Assembly (NCBI RefSeq): GCF_018847975.1
Contig: NZ_CP072597.1
Location: 4,751,001-4,815,000 of the forward strand
Reading direction: 5' to 3'
Length of the DNA: 64,000 nucleotides
Source of the DNA: Lysobacter sp. K5869
GTDB lineage: Bacteria; Pseudomonadota; Gammaproteobacteria; Xanthomonadales; Xanthomonadaceae
Shown: positions 53,001 through 64,000 of the stretch, in pieces
Layout of the letters: every line of letters starts with the position of its first letter
Numbering within the stretch: the first letter of the stretch is position 1
Notes under the pieces: generated by a model
What the model was told of the DNA's origin: nothing
Databases searched by the model: none
What the model saw: the letters and a program-made list of their open reading frames with translations, nothing else
Made by a program: the position numbers and the translations under genes

Positions 53001-54704
53001 ATGCGCACCAAAGTGAAAGGCAGCGAACTGAAGGCGGCCGCGTACGCGGGAACCTACGTGGTGGCCCTCGCCTGGGACACCCACAACGGCAAGGCGCCCA
53101 CGCGCCCCGACCTGCTCGGCTTCGGTATCGAACGCACCGAGTTCGACGTGGCCGGCGCCGAAGTCGAACGCTATTGGCTGCGCGGGATCAAGCGCTTCCA
53201 GAACAAACACGAAGAGCTGCCGCCCGGCACCCTGGTCTCCACCGCCGAGCACCCGGTGCAAGGCTTCCAATGGGCCGATTACACCGCCAAGAGCGGCACC
53301 CGCTACCGCTACCGGATCGTGCCGATCCACGGCACCGTCAAGAACCCCAAGCCCGACGACGCCGCGGCCGTCGAACTCGAGGTGACCTGCGAACTGGAAG
53401 GCGACCAACTCACCGACCCTAACGACACCGCCGTCCGCCACGACGTCTTCTTCAACCGCGGCGTGATCGGCTCGCAAGCCTACGCGCGCAAATTCGAGAA
53501 CCGCGAACCCGACCCCGACAACCCGCGCTCGCCGGAAATGCAATGGCTCTCGCGCGGCCTGTTCGAAGCGCTGGTCCGCTTCATCGGCCTGGCCGGCGAC
53601 GGCATGGGGCTGCGCGCCGCGCTCTACGAATTCCACTACCAACCGGTGGCCAACGCCTTCACCAAAGCCATCGAAGCCGGCGCGGACGTGAAGATCGTCT
53701 ACGACGCGGCCAGCTCCTACAAGACCGACAACGAAGCGACCATCGACGCCTCGGGCCTGCGCGACCACGACGCGGTGATCGGCCGCACCGTCAGCGAAGG
53801 CATCCGCCACAACAAGTTCATCGTCCTGCTGAAAGGGGACACCCCCATCGCGGTGTGGACCGGATCGACCAACGTCTCCGCCGGCGGCATTTTCGGCCAC
53901 TCCAACGTCGGCCACATCGTCTGGGACGAAGACGTGGCCGCGAAGTACCTCGACTACTGGCAGCGACTGGCCGACAACCTCACCCCGACCAAGCTGCGCC
54001 CGCACAACCAGACCGCGACCCCGGTCCCGACCGGCAAACCGCCCAAGCGCTCGGTCACCCCGCTGTTCTCCGCCCGCGACGGCAAGGACGAAAACACCAC
54101 CCTGCAGTGGTACGCCGACCGGCTCGCCGAAGCCCGCGAAGTCTCCTGCACCACCTTCGCCTTCAACATCGACGACACCTTCCAACAGGTGCTGAGCCAG
54201 GACAACGACGTCATCCGCTACATCGTCAAGGACGACCCGCTGGGCGAAACCGAATCCATCGGCAACGACCGCGACGTGATCTTCGCCGCCGGCGCCTACC
54301 TCGACCGCGACGCGCTGTCGAACTTCCTCCAGGAACGCTCGAACCCGCTCAACCGCAACCGCTACATCCACAACAAGTTCATGCTCATCGACCCCTTGAG
54401 CGACGACCCCCTCGTCATCACCGGCTCGGCCAACTTCAGCAAGCCCTCGCAGCGCATCAACGACGAAAACATGCTGGTCATCCGCGGCGACACCCGCGTC
54501 GCCGACATCTACTTCGGCGAATACCTGCGCGTGTTCGACCACCACTACGCGCGCTACATCGTCCGCCTGCTCAGCGACGCCGGACGCTCCGACCCCGACG
54601 CCGGCTACCTCAAGCCGCGCGCCGCCGACTGGGTGCCGGCGCACTTCAACCCCAACAGCTACAAATCCAAGCGGCGCAAGTACTTCGCATCGCCGAAGAA
54701 GTGA
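53001..54704 (+). CDS. Phospholipase D-like protein with asymmetric HKD motifs
   Basis: 567 residues. Residues about 1-130 look like a fibronectin type III-like beta domain (AKSGTRYRYRIVPIHGTVKN). Two PLD half-domains follow. The first HxK is H270-N-K272 (IRHNKFIVLL) but lacks the Asp of HxKxxxxD. The second, H457-N-K459 with D464 (IHNKFMLID, then GSANFS), is complete. Together they could form one active site for cutting phosphodiesters in lipids or nucleic acids. No signal peptide is seen, so it should be cytosolic. GGAGG precedes the ATG. Confidence 0.88.
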   Translation: MRTKVKGSELKAAAYAGTYVVALAWDTHNGKAPTRPDLLGFGIERTEFDVAGAEVERYWLRGIKRFQNKHEELPPGTLVSTAEHPVQGFQWADYTAKSGTRYRYRIVPIHGTVKNPKPDDAAAVELEVTCELEGDQLTDPNDTAVRHDVFFNRGVIGSQAYARKFENREPDPDNPRSPEMQWLSRGLFEALVRFIGLAGDGMGLRAALYEFHYQPVANAFTKAIEAGADVKIVYDAASSYKTDNEATIDASGLRDHDAVIGRTVSEGIRHNKFIVLLKGDTPIAVWTGSTNVSAGGIFGHSNVGHIVWDEDVAAKYLDYWQRLADNLTPTKLRPHNQTATPVPTGKPPKRSVTPLFSARDGKDENTTLQWYADRLAEAREVSCTTFAFNIDDTFQQVLSQDNDVIRYIVKDDPLGETESIGNDRDVIFAAGAYLDRDALSNFLQERSNPLNRNRYIHNKFMLIDPLSDDPLVITGSANFSKPSQRINDENMLVIRGDTRVADIYFGEYLRVFDHHYARYIVRLLSDAGRSDPDAGYLKPRAADWVPAHFNPNSYKSKRRKYFASPKK

Positions 54705-56543: not shown

Positions 56544-59500
56544 TTGAGTACGCCTGAAGATATCCAATCTGTCGCCAAGGCGGTCAAGCCGGCAATAAAG
56601 ACGGCCGCCATTCCGCGTGCTGGTTATGAGTATCAGGATCTGGCCGGAATCGAAATTCTACTCCGGCACTACCGAGACCCTGGCTTATTCAATTGGGTAA
56701 AGCTAGAAGCGGACGATAGCCAGTTCAAAGCTCTCGACGACGTTGTGGCGGAGCGAGTCGATGGGTCCTACGAGTTCGTCCAGGTCAAGTTTACGGTTGA
56801 CTCGGAAAGGTACGAGCTCGACTGGCCCTGGCTTCTTGAGAAGTCCGGGAAGGGGACTTCCATGCTTGCGAAATGGGCGACTTCATTAGCCCGCGTAGCC
56901 GCCATGGGGCGGATTCACTCTGCTTGCCTGAAAACAAACCGACTCCCGTCTGCTGGGTTCCGGAAAGGACTCGTCGGCAATCGAGTTTCGTTAGGCAAGC
57001 TCGACGCAGGACTGCGGAAATCGATAGAGGCTGAATGCGGCGGTCAAGCCGAAGCTGAGCTCTTTTTCAACTCGTTCGATTTCTTGGGCGAACAGCCAGA
57101 TTTTCAAGACTACGAGCGACTGCTTCGAGATCAAATTGTGCCGTCAGATACCGACCCACTTGGATGGGTCTATTTTCGACACCACGTGCGCACATGGGCA
57201 ACCAACAAGAATCAACCGTCCCCTGGTGGAAAGATTCTTCGGGAGCACGTAACCCAGGTGATCAACAAGCGCAGGCCTCAGCCTCTGCGCCAGGACTTTG
57301 TCGTTCCTGACGGATACCAGCCCCCAAGCAGCATCTTTTACGAAACCATCAGGACCCGGCTTCAGGACAACAAATCAACCACCGTTCTTTGGGGTACACC
57401 AGGCCGTGGGAAAAGTACTTTCCTGAGCTATTTGACGCTGAAACTCCAGAAAGAAGGCGCTGCGGTCCTCCGCCATCACTATTTCATTCCAGCGGAGGAA
57501 GACTTCTCCGATCGAACATCCTTTGCTGATATTGCAGCTTCCCTACTCGAACAACTTGGCGCGCGGCATGCCGAAGCGATGGACGGAGTCTCCGACAACG
57601 AGCGAGACTTTCGGCGATCTATCAAAGCAGCCGCCGCTAACTTGGCCAAGGAGGACAAGCGCCTCTACATCGTCATCGATGGACTGGACCATGTGTGGCG
57701 GGACAACAGGCGGGTAGATCAACTCAATCACCTGTTCAATGAGCTTCTTCCGCCTCCGGAGAACGTGAGCGTCATTGTAGGAACGCAGCGAGTTCCCGAT
57801 GAGCAACTACCGAGCAAGCTATTGACGCTCGCAAGGGATGAGGATTGGCAGGAGATTCCTGCCATGGAACAAACATCTGTTCATAGTTGGCTTGCGCTCA
57901 TGAACGAGGTCAGGCCACTACTGCTGCGCTTTGACCCAACTCCGGACCGCAGAGCTGAGTTGGTGAGTGAAGTTGCCGAAGCTCTCTTCCAGATTAGCCA
58001 GGGGCATCCGCTGCATCTGATCTACGCGTATGAGCAGCTTGTTCGCGCTGGAGTACCGATTTCTGCCGACGATGTGAAGGCCCTGGCCCCCTGCCCGGAC
58101 GGCGACATCAAGACCTACTACCAAGGTCTTTGGGTTCGACTGACCCCCACGGCGAAGAATGCCCTACACATGTTGGCGGGATCCGGGTTCCATTGGCCCA
58201 GTCTCGGCATTAGACAGGTACTAGGCGACTTCAGCGAGATTGATCACCTTCTCGAGCCGCGCCGTTTTGGCATGGTGCCGTTCCATTCCAGCGTGTTTGC
58301 TTGGGTTCGAGAAAGGCCTGATCACGACGAATCGTATGTCTCGCTATTGCCGAAGATCGTGGATTGGCTTGAGAACGAAGCCCCAGAGTATTGGCGATGG
58401 GGATGGCTATGGCTGACTAAGGCGCGAGCCGGCGATTTCGCTGATCTGATGGCTGGAACGAATCGTGACTGGGTGGTTTCGTCGCTCTCGAGCGGTTGGC
58501 CTCCAGAGCAGATCGAGAGCATTCTGAAATCGGCGGAAGAGAAGTGTTTCCTTGACGGAGACCTTCCCGGTACCGTTAAACGTCGCAGTCTTAAGACGCG
58601 CGTGTCGAACGGTCGAGATTACCAAGCGCGAGACTTTTCTCTGTTTCTCGCAACTGCGTTAACAGTCTCCAAGAATCGCCAGCAGACGCTCAATCTTATT
58701 GACGCCCCCTTCGAGCTTTCAGACGAAGAGGTTGGCGCAATCGGGCGATGTGGCCTTACCGAGTTGGCATCGGAAACTCAGCCGGCCTGCCTAAGTGAGC
58801 TAGGGCGACGCATAAACACCTGGATTTCACTGCGCCACCGCCCGTATGCGGAGTTCACCAAACTCATTGATCAGCTAATTGCAGTTAGCGCGCAGATGGG
58901 GGCTACCGATGTAGAGCGAGTCCTGAGCTTTCTTCTCGGGTTCGAGGAGCCCGATCCGTACATTGCCAAATTGATTCGCTCGTTAGGGAATGCTCGAAAT
59001 CTAGCGGGACTCCAACTTGCGCTGACGAAGCTGCAGGATGATGCCTGGGAAGAACATCGGACCCTTGCTTGCGATGAAATCATCAGAATTGCTGGATCAA
59101 ATGGAGCGGACGCGCGGCAACTGATCTTAAGCGGGAATGGGCCCATTTCACCCTTCGCGGCCTATTGGTTTCTTAGCAGAGGCTTCGATCTGCCATCTGA
59201 AGTACGTCACGCCGATGTACCGACCGAGCTCATACAGGGTCGCTACACGTACGGAATGAGAGAGGAGGTGGCCGCCTTCTTTTGGGATTCATTCTGGTCC
59301 GCGCTATACGTAGCAATGCGTGCTGGGGACGCGCCGTACACCTTGATTCCACGGGATCTAGGGGGAGAAGAAGGCTGGATCGGAGTGGGATTGGCTCAGC
59401 TCGAAGAAGTTGCGGCCTCGATTGCTACAGGCGAACTCAAGGCGGACTTTGCGGCTGTGTACTTGGGATCAGCAGATATTGCGGCGGTGTTGCATGGCCC

Positions 59501-62375
59501 GTCGCCAGAGGAAGACTACACACAGTACATCGCGTATTGCGAGGCGCTTCGCAGGATTGCGTTAGACCTCCACCTTGCGACAAGTAACGGGACTCGAGTA
59601 TCGGTGGCTACTTTCGAAATCGCGAGAGGCTCCGTACATTGGTCCGACGAAATCTGGGTTGCGCGTACCAGCGCATCCCGGGCCCCCGTTCTAGAGCCGG
59701 CTGCAGCTAAGACGATGCTGACAGATGAGGCCAATCGGCTTGTATCTAAGGTTGTGGAGTTTAGCGAAAGGTCTGAGCGATGGACTCTGTTGGCCGATGT
59801 AGCGAAGCTCTATAACGACGCGGAGCAACAAGCCTATCTGCGCCACGCAGCAGAATGCGTAGTCGGGTACGGGTGGAGGAAGGACCTGGGTGCGTTTGAA
59901 GTATTGGACGCCATTTCGTGGGTTCACTCCAAAGATCCTTCGAACACACGCAAATGGCTGGAAACGACTGCGCCGATAGTTGATCAGATCACGGAGTTTA
60001 CGGATGGGGACGAGACCGGTCACGTCAGGTCGGAGCTCATTGACGCCGTGAACAAATGTCTCTCGGAGTTCCTGCCAAGCCTTTTTGAGCATCACGTTGA
60101 TGAGGACGAGCACAGGTACGCAGACGAATGCATCATCGAATACGTAGGATCCATGGATCTTTCCCTGGAGGAGTCGCGCGCCCTCGCTGGAACTCTAATC
60201 GACACCAGGACGTTGGAGGCTCTCGAGAAGCGGGCTCTCGACGATGGAGCGGCAAGGAGGCTTGTTGATGCGCAAGTGGCATTCCTTGGTGGACACCCGC
60301 CGCCAGAACGATATGAATCATCAAATTCGGAGTCGGAAAACGAAAGCAAGGAGCTGCCGGATGCGACTTTGTTCGGGCCAGAGTGTTTCTCGGATGTCCT
60401 GGCTGCATCGGAGGCCGTTGACTACAAGCTGCGTAGCGGATTCTTCGCCTCCTGGCTCAACCACTGCCGTGAAAACGGGGCCGCCACACGAGCATTGCGC
60501 TGCATTTGGTCATATTTCGAGAGCTCCGAGCAAACATACGGCGCTGACGAGATTCTTGATGAGGCATTTCGCCTTAGCCTAGAGGTAGAAGGTAAGGAAG
60601 CGGCGTATCCATGGTTAGTGAAGGCACACATTCATCGTAGCGGGTGGCAGAGCTGGTTCAATTCCGAGAAGGAGGCGATGGACCGACTCGAGTTAGCTGC
60701 TACCAACTTCGCGGACCGTTGGCTTTCCTACATCCGAGACACGTCAGTGCCGGCACCCTACTATCGGCGACGCGGCCACGGGTTAGTCATCGGCTACAAG
60801 TACCTGGTGCGATTCCTCGTCTTGGCTGGCCAGATTGAGGTCGCAAGCGCCGTAACCGACGCCTTCGTAAAAACTCTGGCCGATGAGGTGCAAGACCAGC
60901 CGATTCCACCGGCGTCTTGGTTCAAGCCCAGCAGCCCTGGAATCTCGAATGGCCTCGGCATGCTTTTTACGCGGCTGAAATGGCCGGTGCCGATGGCCCG
61001 TTTTCTAGTGGCAAGAAAAATTCGAGAGTTGTTGGAGAACGCTGTAACACGACCTGCGGCTACTGCCGCCCTGCTTGAACATCTTGAGCGCTGCAGGTAC
61101 GAATCTGAGACCTGCGAAGTACTTAATCTGCTGATGCTCGCATCCGAGGACGCTCGCCCACCGCATAGCGTTGTGGCGTGCCGCATCAAGCATCCCTCAA
61201 TCCTTGCCGACCTCCTGCTCGAGAAGACATTTGGGAACGGGAAGGCTATCGGCGGGTGGAGGCAAACGTACTCCCCGGAGTTTCCGCACGATTTTGAGCC
61301 GAGTGCCTATTTCGAAGAGCACAAGACATCGCACGTTCCGCCGGTGTATCGCAATCACTTCTTGGAGCTGGAGCGGAAGAGCGGCTTCCCTTTTGGAACG
61401 CAATGGGCGTTTGAATGGAAAAACATTTGCGAGTCACTCGGCACTCACTACACACGATACCCGTACTACTTCGGCGACTTCTCTGAGCTTCGTGAGGGCA
61501 TCATTGGACAGTTCTGGCAAAGGATGCGCGAAGCATATCTTTCGGCCTACCTGAGAACGCTCGCATTTGCCGTCTCGGAATTGGGCTTGCCTCAAGCGTT
61601 TGCAGAGGACCGTTGCCTACATATGGTTTACGGTATCCATGGCCTGCATGAACTGACGCCAGCCCGCCGACCAGATTGGCTGGGGGACTTTCCCGAAGAG
61701 GCTCTAGCGTCAGGAGGCGAATTGGAGACGGTTGCTCGCCAGTTCCTCAGTGCCATTCAGATAGATGGCATGCGGCTCACGTCCCTCAGGACTCCCCTCA
61801 AATCGTCCGTCGACAACTACGCGATATTGGACATCAGCTCTCACCTTGTAACTTCCGACTACGAGCCAGGCGCCGACCCAAAGTTTTACGAGATGGGGCG
61901 AATTCTCCAGGCCGAGAACCTGAGACTAGAGGGGGAGCTGTCGTTGCTACCGCTACAGTCGATAGAGGCCGAGGGCAAGTCGGGTTCCGAATTTGCCGTT
62001 TGCGTGGATCTGACGCCCTTGCCCTTCGGTTCTTGGCAATCTGATGTGATTAGCGTCGGATTGCCCGTCCCTGAGCCGCATGTGGCGTCAGGCAATCTCC
62101 GTTGCACTACAGATGCGATCGAGTTGATAGACCCTTCAGGGGCAGTCATCGGAAGAACGATCACCTGGAACGATCACTGGAGCCCGCTGTACCCGCGCGA
62201 AGGCAGGACACGATGCGGCGTAGCCGCATTTCTCAACTCAGCCGCCCTTGACATTTCGCAAAAGCGCACGAAACGAGAGTTGGCTTGGTCCATCGCAATA
62301 ACCACCTGGCGCCGCGAGGAAAGTCTGGAAGCCTATTCGGCCCACCGTCGATCCGTTTTCTTTAAGGACGTGTAG
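56544..62375 (+). CDS. Avs-like defence protein: nuclease-like N-terminus, STAND NTPase and giant C-terminal sensor region
   Basis: 1,943 residues from a TTG start; no ATG keeps the N-terminal domain. Residues about 25-135 match the DUF4297/Cap4-type nuclease: GYEYQ (27-31), then D65-D66 and Q80-V-K82 in LDDVVAERVDGSYEFVQVKF, the PD-(D/E)XK pattern. The STAND NTPase follows with P-loop GTPGRGKST (284-292), Walker B LYIVIDGLDHV (D379, D382) and the sensor-like VGTQR (412-416). Residues about 430-1943 are mainly helical without a named domain, as in Avs sensors that bind phage proteins. Such proteins are antiphage effectors that switch on a nuclease on recognising phage terminase or portal. Phage target here is unknown. 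Codon use and G+C differ sharply from the rest of the window. Confidence 0.85.
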   Translation: MSTPEDIQSVAKAVKPAIKTAAIPRAGYEYQDLAGIEILLRHYRDPGLFNWVKLEADDSQFKALDDVVAERVDGSYEFVQVKFTVDSERYELDWPWLLEKSGKGTSMLAKWATSLARVAAMGRIHSACLKTNRLPSAGFRKGLVGNRVSLGKLDAGLRKSIEAECGGQAEAELFFNSFDFLGEQPDFQDYERLLRDQIVPSDTDPLGWVYFRHHVRTWATNKNQPSPGGKILREHVTQVINKRRPQPLRQDFVVPDGYQPPSSIFYETIRTRLQDNKSTTVLWGTPGRGKSTFLSYLTLKLQKEGAAVLRHHYFIPAEEDFSDRTSFADIAASLLEQLGARHAEAMDGVSDNERDFRRSIKAAAANLAKEDKRLYIVIDGLDHVWRDNRRVDQLNHLFNELLPPPENVSVIVGTQRVPDEQLPSKLLTLARDEDWQEIPAMEQTSVHSWLALMNEVRPLLLRFDPTPDRRAELVSEVAEALFQISQGHPLHLIYAYEQLVRAGVPISADDVKALAPCPDGDIKTYYQGLWVRLTPTAKNALHMLAGSGFHWPSLGIRQVLGDFSEIDHLLEPRRFGMVPFHSSVFAWVRERPDHDESYVSLLPKIVDWLENEAPEYWRWGWLWLTKARAGDFADLMAGTNRDWVVSSLSSGWPPEQIESILKSAEEKCFLDGDLPGTVKRRSLKTRVSNGRDYQARDFSLFLATALTVSKNRQQTLNLIDAPFELSDEEVGAIGRCGLTELASETQPACLSELGRRINTWISLRHRPYAEFTKLIDQLIAVSAQMGATDVERVLSFLLGFEEPDPYIAKLIRSLGNARNLAGLQLALTKLQDDAWEEHRTLACDEIIRIAGSNGADARQLILSGNGPISPFAAYWFLSRGFDLPSEVRHADVPTELIQGRYTYGMREEVAAFFWDSFWSALYVAMRAGDAPYTLIPRDLGGEEGWIGVGLAQLEEVAASIATGELKADFAAVYLGSADIAAVLHGPSPEEDYTQYIAYCEALRRIALDLHLATSNGTRVSVATFEIARGSVHWSDEIWVARTSASRAPVLEPAAAKTMLTDEANRLVSKVVEFSERSERWTLLADVAKLYNDAEQQAYLRHAAECVVGYGWRKDLGAFEVLDAISWVHSKDPSNTRKWLETTAPIVDQITEFTDGDETGHVRSELIDAVNKCLSEFLPSLFEHHVDEDEHRYADECIIEYVGSMDLSLEESRALAGTLIDTRTLEALEKRALDDGAARRLVDAQVAFLGGHPPPERYESSNSESENESKELPDATLFGPECFSDVLAASEAVDYKLRSGFFASWLNHCRENGAATRALRCIWSYFESSEQTYGADEILDEAFRLSLEVEGKEAAYPWLVKAHIHRSGWQSWFNSEKEAMDRLELAATNFADRWLSYIRDTSVPAPYYRRRGHGLVIGYKYLVRFLVLAGQIEVASAVTDAFVKTLADEVQDQPIPPASWFKPSSPGISNGLGMLFTRLKWPVPMARFLVARKIRELLENAVTRPAATAALLEHLERCRYESETCEVLNLLMLASEDARPPHSVVACRIKHPSILADLLLEKTFGNGKAIGGWRQTYSPEFPHDFEPSAYFEEHKTSHVPPVYRNHFLELERKSGFPFGTQWAFEWKNICESLGTHYTRYPYYFGDFSELREGIIGQFWQRMREAYLSAYLRTLAFAVSELGLPQAFAEDRCLHMVYGIHGLHELTPARRPDWLGDFPEEALASGGELETVARQFLSAIQIDGMRLTSLRTPLKSSVDNYAILDISSHLVTSDYEPGADPKFYEMGRILQAENLRLEGELSLLPLQSIEAEGKSGSEFAVCVDLTPLPFGSWQSDVISVGLPVPEPHVASGNLRCTTDAIELIDPSGAVIGRTITWNDHWSPLYPREGRTRCGVAAFLNSAALDISQKRTKRELAWSIAITTWRREESLEAYSAHRRSVFFKDV

Positions 62376-63055
62376 GTACAGGAGAGCGTAAGACCTGGCT
62401 GATCCGTGCTACTTGCCCTTCACCATCCGCTTGTGTACCAACTCTCGAAAGATTTCGGGCGAAAGATCCGCACCTTCGATGATGGCGGCGACAATTACAG
62501 GCGACGGAAGCCGCGGCAATGTTTGGCACTTTGGTTCGCCCGAGAACCTGATTGAAACAGCGGACTACTGCGTCAGTAAGTCACCGACGAGTACGCTGAT
62601 CTCGGGCGCTGCGTCAATCAGCCCTGAGCCGTAACCCAATTGGCTTCATCACTGACAGCCCCTCGGAAAACTGATGCCCGCTTTTGGCCGAAAGCAGGCA
62701 ACTGCAAGGCAGAAGCCCGCTGGTATCCAATACACGCGCCACATTCAGTGGACACCTCTACCCGACATGTTAGGCAATACGCCTAATGGATTGAGCACCG
62801 GCGTCCGCATGCGGCCAGAAGCCGGGGCGCCGAGAGAGACCGCTCACGAGCAGAATCGGCCGCCGGCGCACTAGTTGCACAGAGCTCTCGTGCCCTGCTG
62901 ATCTGCCACTGAGCCAAACTAAACGTCCGCTTGTTAGTCAAACCCAGCAGCTCTAAGATCGAGTTGTACTGAAGATATCCCGCTCAGCATTGGGCGGAGT
63001 GATGTCGCCCAACTGCCCTCCGAGAGGGAGAGGCTTTCAATCACGGGATTCCATC
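62376..63055. other. Gap between the island genes
   Basis: 680 bp without an intact gene. The left end (62409-62564) holds a truncated minus-strand coding remnant described separately. The rest (62570-63050) shows only short frames and no repeat I can support. Confidence 0.45.
62409..62564 (-). pseudogene. Remnant C-terminus of an unidentified protein
   Basis: The minus strand reads IRFSGEPKCQT then LPRLPSPVIVAAIIEGADLS and PEIFRELVHKRMVKGK before a TAG at 62409-62411. The frame is closed upstream by a stop near 62567 and has no start codon. The composition looks like true coding sequence. The IVAAIIEG pattern is faintly like the C-terminal part of phage-type recombinases, but this is only a guess. 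Confidence 0.35.
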
Positions 63056-63667
63056 ATGATTAGGGACGATCTGAGCGACAAGCTAGTCCATTTGGTTCGC
63101 GGTGACACAGTTGGAGACGCATTCAAGAAGTTTCAGAGCATCATCCGCGAGGGGCGGTTGCGGGGAGGTAACGGCTACATTAAAGGGGGATACAAATGCG
63201 TGTGCTTCACGGACACCCCCATCAGCAAGCTCGGCTACGTTCTTGCCAATCCGGATCCAAAAAAAATGCGCTACCGCCCGATTGGCATCATGGTGGACAA
63301 GAAGTATGTCTTTGAGGCTGGCGGACGTCCCGTTATCTATCAGCCAGACATTGACTTTGAGAAGCTGCCAGACGCCCTTCGCTACCGCCACGTTAGGTTT
63401 GAACTTGATCGACCAGAAGGCGCTGTTGACTTCACTTGGGAGCGAGAGTGGAGGCTACGTGCTGATGAACTCACACTTCCTCGGGATTCAACGACTGTCG
63501 TTCTTCCAAACCGTGACTGGCGTGACATCCTAGTTGAAGATCACATCACTCGGATTCAAGATGAGGTTCGACAATTGGGCAGTGATGCAGCCCTCGCAAT
63601 TGAAGCGTACCCATGGCATATCATTGTGCTTGAGGATCTTGGCATTCCGATTCCAGATGGGCTGTAA
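63056..63667 (+). CDS. AbiGi-like small protein of the island
   Basis: 203 residues from the ATG at 63056. The pattern LVHLVRGDTVGDAFKKFQSII, CVCFTDTPISKLGYVL (C50-I56), YRPIGIMVDKKYVFEAGGRPVIYQ and DFTWEREWRL (125-134) resembles a group of defence-associated proteins that includes the AbiGi abortive-infection antitoxin family. An ADP-ribosyltransferase-like fold is possible. No signal peptide. It lies 680 bp after the NTPase gene on the same strand with similarly low G+C. Whether the two act together is not known. Confidence 0.6.
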   Translation: MIRDDLSDKLVHLVRGDTVGDAFKKFQSIIREGRLRGGNGYIKGGYKCVCFTDTPISKLGYVLANPDPKKMRYRPIGIMVDKKYVFEAGGRPVIYQPDIDFEKLPDALRYRHVRFELDRPEGAVDFTWEREWRLRADELTLPRDSTTVVLPNRDWRDILVEDHITRIQDEVRQLGSDAALAIEAYPWHIIVLEDLGIPIPDGL

Positions 63668-64000
63668 CTACGCTTTCGTCGTCCTCGAAAAACCATCGAA
63701 TTGACGGCTTGGGCTTTGCAGGCCATCTGCAGGCCTTACTGACGTCCGCAGTGGCCGGAGGGCATCATGCGACTCAAAGCGAACATCTCACTTCTACCGG
63801 CGAGTTTGCAGTGGTCGCCGGGCCTGAAAACTGCGGCGCCTATCTTCGGGCTGGAAAATCTGGGTACCTCGCCCTAGCCGCCCCCTCGCTGCACGAAGCC
63901 AACACCCAAACCCGCCGCTTCGTCCAACAAACCATGACGGAGCAACGCATCCCCGGCCTACAGCTAGCCGTCGTCAAAGACGGCCGCATCGTCCTCTCGG
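63668..64000 (+). CDS. Serine beta-lactamase-like hydrolase, N-terminal part, possibly disrupted 5' end
   Basis: The window ends in a frame reading HEANTQTRRFVQQTMTEQRI then PGLQLAVVKDGRIVLS, the N-terminus of class C beta-lactamase/esterase-like serine hydrolases. The frame is open upstream through lower-G+C sequence without a good start. Another frame starts at an ATG at 63768 and reads MRLKANISLLPASLQ..AAP, like a decayed signal peptide, but stops at a TAG near 63878. The only nearby in-frame ATG is at 63934. The annotated start is therefore a guess, and the gene may be broken or only have lost its signal. Confidence 0.5.

Follow-up and report, generated by a model that had tools for sequence, protein, structure and literature searches.

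A predicted Avs3-like antiphage protein of Lysobacter sp. K5869 and the two-gene form of its relatives

A long nuclease-STAND gene on a low-G+C island

The window analysed here comprises 64,000 nucleotides of Lysobacter sp. K5869 (contig NZ_CP072597.1 of assembly GCF_018847975.1, positions 4,751,001 to 4,815,000). It contains a gene for a protein of 1,943 amino acids which, judged from its sequence, is probably a real and functional antiphage protein of an unnamed Avs3-like kind. The gene is a single open reading frame (ORF) of 1,943 codons starting with TTG, and its first residue is shared by the closest relatives (1,944 amino acids, P0002 to P0005), which have methionine at this position. 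The ORF of the original prediction, which had been made from this one locus, was thereby confirmed in its position, strand, length and start. The island of low G+C content on which the gene had been placed is also real: from about 56240 to about 63865 the G+C content is 54 to 57%, compared to about 65 to 70% outside. No convincing direct repeats were found flanking the island. Among 100 related genomes searched, only its own contains the gene, in one copy.

56544..62375, + strand: fused Avs3-like nuclease-STAND protein, 1,943 amino acids (ORF reading with TTG start; start of relatives)
~56240..~63865, no strand: low-G+C island containing the gene, ends approximate (G+C profile; right edge adjoins a partial gene copy)

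Nuclease and NTPase domains

All motifs that had been named in the original prediction were found at the expected residues: GYEYQ at 27-31, the nuclease-type pattern with D65-D66 and Q80-V81-K82, the P-loop GTPGRGKST at 284-292, and the Walker B motif LYIVIDGLDHV at 374-384. Their conservation was determined in an alignment of 168 rows, for which 16 partial or broken proteins and 15 such loci had been left aside beforehand; 167 rows remained when P0080, truncated at a contig end, was set aside. In all of them the nuclease residues D66, Q80 and K82 and the NTPase residues P286, G289, K290, S291, T292, D379 and D382 are identical, and Q31 is kept in 165, the other two having gaps. Since the key residues of both domains never vary, the motifs are more than chance resemblances.

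Profile searches gave the same picture. PADLOC models for SAVED_PDDEXK (E 3.8e-11) and for an effector endonuclease (E 7.7e-10) matched at residues 19-136. Among 50 N-termini aligned, Pfam Cap4_nuclease was found in 42, the best at 1.6e-8 (the nuclease alignment holds 49 of 73 loci), with the window's own piece giving no match at E 0.01. At residues 271-446, the Pfam families NPHP3_N, AAA_16, AAA_22 and NACHT scored above their cut-offs. By sequence, the N-terminus is thus predicted to be a Cap4-type nuclease of the PD-(D/E)XK fold, followed by a NACHT/STAND NTPase, as had been proposed. The overall plan of effector, NTPase and long sensor was likewise borne out by PADLOC, Pfam and the comparison with an Avs3a profile described below. 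In the PDB, the N-terminus of an AAA family ATPase of 1,523 amino acids (9n00, chain A) matched the nuclease profile weakly (E 0.003) and may represent another Cap4-fused ATPase.

56544..57350, + strand: Cap4-type (PD-(D/E)XK) nuclease domain, residues 1-269 (PADLOC, Pfam on relatives, invariant residues)
56739-56741, + strand: nuclease residue D66
56781-56789, + strand: nuclease residues Q80-V81-K82
57327..58178, + strand: NACHT/STAND NTPase and following stretch, residues 262-545 (Pfam, invariant residues; nearest profile Avs1b)
57393-57419, + strand: P-loop
57663-57695, + strand: Walker B motif

Predicted fold of the sensor

The remaining part, about 1,500 residues, had been described as lacking a recognisable domain. 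This holds for Pfam, which at E 0.1 listed no family C-terminal of residue 446, and none of 64 members of the tail alignment matched Pfam at E 0.01, but it does not hold for the predicted fold. AlphaFold models were obtained for two halves, termed arch and tail, from alignments of 57 of 71 possible loci plus the window (arch) and 63 of 70 plus the window (tail). They reached pLDDT values of 90.9 and 92.4, respectively. For both models the best match in the PDB was the same entry, 8dgc, in collinear order, and the tail model matched residues 1544-2079 of the Avs3 protein in it. According to its title, 8dgc is Avs3 bound to a phage terminase. The expectation that the C-terminal region might define a new recognition class was therefore not borne out; going by the models, the fold of the sensor does not make it a new class, and the protein it resembles is a defence protein.

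58176..60926, + strand: helical-repeat sensor arch, residues 545-1461 (model pLDDT 90.9; best match Avs3, 8dgc)
59865-59885, + strand: conserved arch motif GYGWRKD
59997-60017, + strand: conserved arch motif FTDGDET
60924..62372, + strand: C-terminal tail, residues 1461-1943, helices followed by a beta-rich part (model pLDDT 92.4)

In the arch, K1113 and D1114 are each present in 166 of the 167 aligned rows. Neither single-sequence nor profile searches of the PDB yielded a convincing sequence relative of the sensor. Designed PPR repeats were considered as a candidate in these searches and dismissed, because no stretch passed on its own. Two PADLOC families, each matching one of the 64 tails at E of about 0.004, were taken as chance hits.

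Relatives with two overlapping genes

A search with residues 560-1943 (7,989 candidates scored) revealed 118 related proteins. According to their coverage of the profile, 54 are fused and full-length, 48 end near residue 1456, including P0080 at its contig end, and 16 are partial. Most of the short forms end alike, with a tryptophan and a few further residues; P0118 and P0119 end otherwise. At the level of loci, one genome per species was scanned, 157 loci were confirmed, and the best 80 of these were read. In 44 of the 80, two overlapping genes are present, and the cut lies at profile position ~1456, corresponding to residue ~1461 of the window protein. Intact fusions, the form of the window, were found in 25, six more are fused at this site and broken or partial elsewhere (L004, L006, L038, L065, L068, L071), and five were uninformative (L005, L008, L011, L058, L060). 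At least five of the 44 split loci are themselves broken elsewhere (L019, L021, L026, L031, and L066 in the tail). The original prediction, drawn from a single locus, missed this two-gene form.

60909..60926, + strand: arch/tail junction, residues 1456-1461, gene boundary in 44 of 80 related loci (locus reading)

Immediately downstream of the first gene, the split loci contain an overlapping frame for the missing ~485 residues, and a second ORF is present in all 44 loci in which the first ends at the site. In the range of -30 to +12 bases around the first stop codon, 38 of the 44 have an ATG, compared to a background rate of 0.11, and 17 have an ATG together with a Shine-Dalgarno-like word, compared to 0.012; the background was taken from 50 positions drawn at random within the first ORF of each locus. 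No ATG lies in this range in six loci, and 24 have no Shine-Dalgarno-like word before any start codon there. Overlaps of 13 bases with ATG (14 loci) and of four bases, ATGA (13 loci), are found. Plasmids provide examples of both forms: Cupriavidus metallidurans pMOL28 carries two annotated genes overlapping by four bases and a Roseibium plasmid two genes overlapping by ten, while on Serratia and Klebsiella plasmids there is one gene each. The pattern of overlaps probably reflects translational coupling, by which arch and tail would be produced as two chains. In 41 of the 44 split loci the second ORF is shifted by -1 relative to the first, as would also be seen if programmed -1 frameshifting yielded one long protein and all members of the family were single-chain. 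However, the -1 frame follows automatically from an overlap of four bases (ATGA) or 13 bases, the junction is enriched in start codons and Shine-Dalgarno-like words, and three loci (L022, L025, L072) have their second ORF in +1; slippery sites were sought by eye only. Frameshifting is consequently regarded as improbable.

The distribution of the two forms was traced on a FastTree phylogeny that covers 168 rows and uses the part common to both. The labels, 88 split and 80 fused, require 15 changes, P0080 included, of which seven are forced by well-supported branches; shuffled labels need 55.9. Without P0080, 14 changes remain, also when P0118 and P0119, for which a second gene was not verified, are dropped, a number to be taken as a guide value in view of the FastTree method and the long branches that meet. 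If the split label is limited to the 40 loci with a verified second ORF, set against the 80 fused rows, nine changes are needed. The clade of the window, 16 rows, is wholly fused; there are several such clades, and the window's form falls in one of them.

Arch and tail diverge together. Their identity matrices, compared for 58 loci plus the window (59 rows), gave a Spearman coefficient of 0.78, not reached in any of 500 permutations, and the coefficient was 0.69 in the 35 split loci alone and 0.83 in the 24 fused rows. Swapping of tails was rejected, since the identities of arch and tail agree and no sign of free exchange was seen. From this joint divergence, the tail looks like a co-evolving, apparently obligate partner and not like a swapped module. 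It is conceivable, though we hold it at slightly less than even, that the family is a bipartite Avs, an NLR-like protein whose ligand-clasping sensor often consists of two chains, an effector-NTPase-arch protein and a co-evolving tail, which must assemble to sense. If so, repeated fusion and fission at one residue would mark the tail as a natural two-key safety or an assembly checkpoint, and the two forms would be a ready-made test of the role of covalent linkage in Avs activation.

A search with the tail alignment (7,999 candidates scored) detected 30 proteins of 371 to 694 amino acids, mostly about 485, some of them partial; P0137, with 694 amino acids, is probably part of a fused gene. A separate arrangement was seen on Pseudoalteromonas plasmid pMEGA (L089, 5122-10714) and in Moraxella (L090, 5116-10741), where a gene for an ATP-binding-type protein of 1,578 or 1,586 amino acids overlaps by eight bases a gene for 287 or 290 amino acids. 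These plasmid loci perhaps represent another two-gene STAND group; three of their proteins were scanned and had no PADLOC match.

Distribution and neighbouring genes

Loci of the family were detected in Pseudomonadota, Nitrospira, Chloroflexi, Gemmatimonadota, Myxococcus and a member of the Verrucomicrobiae. Of the records in a plasmid collection, 46 gave a match at E 0.01, and in 12 of them 80% or more of the protein is encoded at a single place. The phage collection contained no match to the family. Four viral contigs matched, three in the NTPase part only; the fourth (L119) has a fused copy of 1,940 amino acids near an integrase, with 57% identity in the best segment. When the flanking ORFs of the loci were clustered, 13 clusters occurred in at least three loci. 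The largest (ten loci) appeared by eye to be tyrosine recombinase-like, two smaller ones recombinase-like, and the rest general genes. No constant third gene beside the tail gene was seen in these clusters. Upstream of the relative on a Klebsiella plasmid (L085) there are a GTPase gene and a gene for a dynamin-like GTPase of the LeoA/HP0731 family, with an IS5-like transposase between them.

Downstream of the gene and still inside the island, 62990-63667 (+ strand) contains an ORF of 225 amino acids with an alternative ATG at 63056 and a CFTDTP motif. It had no match in Pfam, NCBIfam, PADLOC or PHROG and was in no flank cluster among the members listed, which number at most 14 per cluster; that it is another defence-type gene is a guess. 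The right edge of the island (window 63867-64000; L002 8867-9308) adjoins a partial copy of a serine-hydrolase gene with a weak PF00144 match under the cut-off; it is 94% identical to a longer copy beyond the window (L002 15445-16560). Outside the island, 53001-54704 (+ strand) encodes a protein of 567 amino acids with two PLD-like (PLDc_2) stretches, weakly similar to DrmC, ZacB and NucT.

Could the gene lack a role in phage defence, being a long frame that arose by chance or a STAND regulator with a housekeeping function? The neighbourhood would permit it, since of two neighbours scanned with PADLOC one had no match and the PLD protein had weak DrmC-like matches. Full-length relatives across many taxa, with nuclease and P-loop residues invariant, argue against it, as do the presence in one of 100 related genomes and the occurrence of plasmids and one viral contig among the homes of the family. 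This explanation is considered very remote.

Proposed mode of action

In PMC12931631, Avs proteins are described as consisting of effector, NTPase and sensor, with nuclease activity in Avs1-4, and Avs1-4 as recognising terminase, portal or Ksap1. The best account of the window protein that we can draw from its anatomy and from knowledge of Avs proteins is that it is a single-chain protein gained by horizontal transfer and belongs to an unnamed family of Avs3-like antiphage STAND NTPases, a reading we consider likely. At rest, the Cap4 nuclease would be silent. Arch (545-1461) and tail (1461-1943) would jointly grip a conserved protein of phage packaging, for which the large terminase subunit is the most likely candidate. 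With the ligand bound, the NTPase would bind ATP and oligomerise, bringing together the nuclease domains, which would cut cellular and phage DNA, and the infected cell would die or stall before phage release (abortive infection). In the split relatives, about half of those sampled, arch and tail would be separate proteins that must assemble before sensing. We infer the defence activity itself and each of these steps, from ligand to two-chain assembly.

For the large terminase subunit as the ligand, the chances appear about even. Some other phage protein, such as the portal, a Ksap1-like protein or another one, might be recognised with the same effector logic, which is a serious though lesser possibility. 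The variety of ligands recorded for Avs1-4 in the source above is consistent with it, and in the 59 rows the sensor diverges faster (mean identity 0.24 for the arch and 0.22 for the tail) than effector and NTPase (0.39). On the other hand, both halves have a clear fold match in the terminase-bound Avs3 only, and Avs4, the portal sensor, was not seen among the matches listed, which does not imply its exclusion. If the target is the large terminase, terminase sensing would extend to a sequence family almost without detectable similarity to Avs3. The split form offers a practical handle on the open question of how Avs sensors recognise packaging proteins, because its tail can be added, left out or labelled independently of the other chain.

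Comparison with known systems

No model in Pfam, NCBIfam or PADLOC names the family, although the PADLOC set may lack an Avs3 model. The models for Avs2 (NF041813), Avs4 (NF041815), Avs5 (NF041814) and Avs3a (NF041816, cut-off 2,800 bits) had no match in the genome of the window at E 0.001, and the protein was not listed for them at E 0.1. PADLOC models PDLC02163 and PDLC02165 stand for Avs2, and NF041812 for 'class_D_Cupria'. In the literature searched, which covers the main Avs papers incompletely, no report on the family or on split Avs was recognised. The claim of an undescribed system stands only as regards these models and this literature, and the predicted fold of the sensor resembles that of Avs3. 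The family adds a large lineage, present in several bacterial phyla and on plasmids, that these models do not name as Avs, and we had not met its bipartite gene architecture or its mosaic composition before.

When the window protein was compared pairwise with an Avs3a homologue from a genome of the same family as that of the window (L142, genome G029; 2,747.9 bits, just below the NF041816 cut-off), no similarity was seen (best E 0.30), nor did the family HMM match this homologue. For a more sensitive comparison by hhalign, an Avs3a profile was built from 29 of 120 sequences, the L142 protein and 119 homologues (7,991 candidates scored). Scores, with probabilities in brackets, were 59.4 (94.6) for the nuclease, 71.0 (96.3) for the NTPase, 45.6 (29.9) for the arch and 41.1 (36.1) for the tail; the maxima with 20 column-shuffled Avs3a targets each were 23.4 for nuclease, 24.6 for arch and 18.3 for tail. 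These values weakly support an Avs3-like sensor.

The NTPase is nearer to Avs1b, with a score of 167.8 against 71.0 for Avs3a, and PADLOC and NCBIfam (NF041810) also report Avs1b, with matches confined to residues 360-545. The protein could accordingly be a relative of Avs1 with an Avs1b-type NTPase, in which the protease was replaced by a Cap4 nuclease and which has a sensor of its own. We consider this unlikely, as arch and tail score 24.5 (0.5%) and 25.6 (1.9%) against an Avs1b profile of four sequences and without a shuffle baseline, compared to 45.6 and 41.1 against Avs3a with its 29. An ATP-binding protein of 2,021 amino acids encoded on an E. coli IncHI2A/IncN plasmid (L088, 5167-11232) also has an Avs1b-like NTPase (E 3.4e-24), its score being far below the Avs1b NCBIfam cut-off.

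Among known systems, the general AVAST/STAND plan of effector, NTPase and C-terminal sensor is found in the window protein. With CBASS Cap4/SAVED nucleases it shares the Cap4-type nuclease domain, but Pfam lists no SAVED domain for it at E 0.1. Proteins related to bNACHT and NLRs have a NACHT NTPase and the same order of effector, NTPase and sensor; by comparison, the sensor of the window protein appears to be much longer and in two parts. Avs1b (AVAST type 1) has the closest NTPase module but differs in its N-terminus, which is a protease, whereas no protease was found in the Pfam scan of the window protein, and the match of its sensor to arch and tail is weak. Avs3 has the same order of Cap4-type nuclease, STAND NTPase, helical arch and beta-rich tail in ~2,090 amino acids, compared to 1,943. 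Profiles place the nuclease, and predicted models the 8dgc fold of arch and tail, on the side of Avs3, but the NTPase is of another subtype. Also, no split group stood out in the lengths of the 119 Avs3a homologues, whereas about half of the relatives of the window protein are split. With nuclease and sensor leaning to Avs3 and the NTPase to Avs1b, the family forms an Avs3-like lineage of mosaic composition that falls under none of the named Avs types, and this combination suggests that Avs modules recombine.
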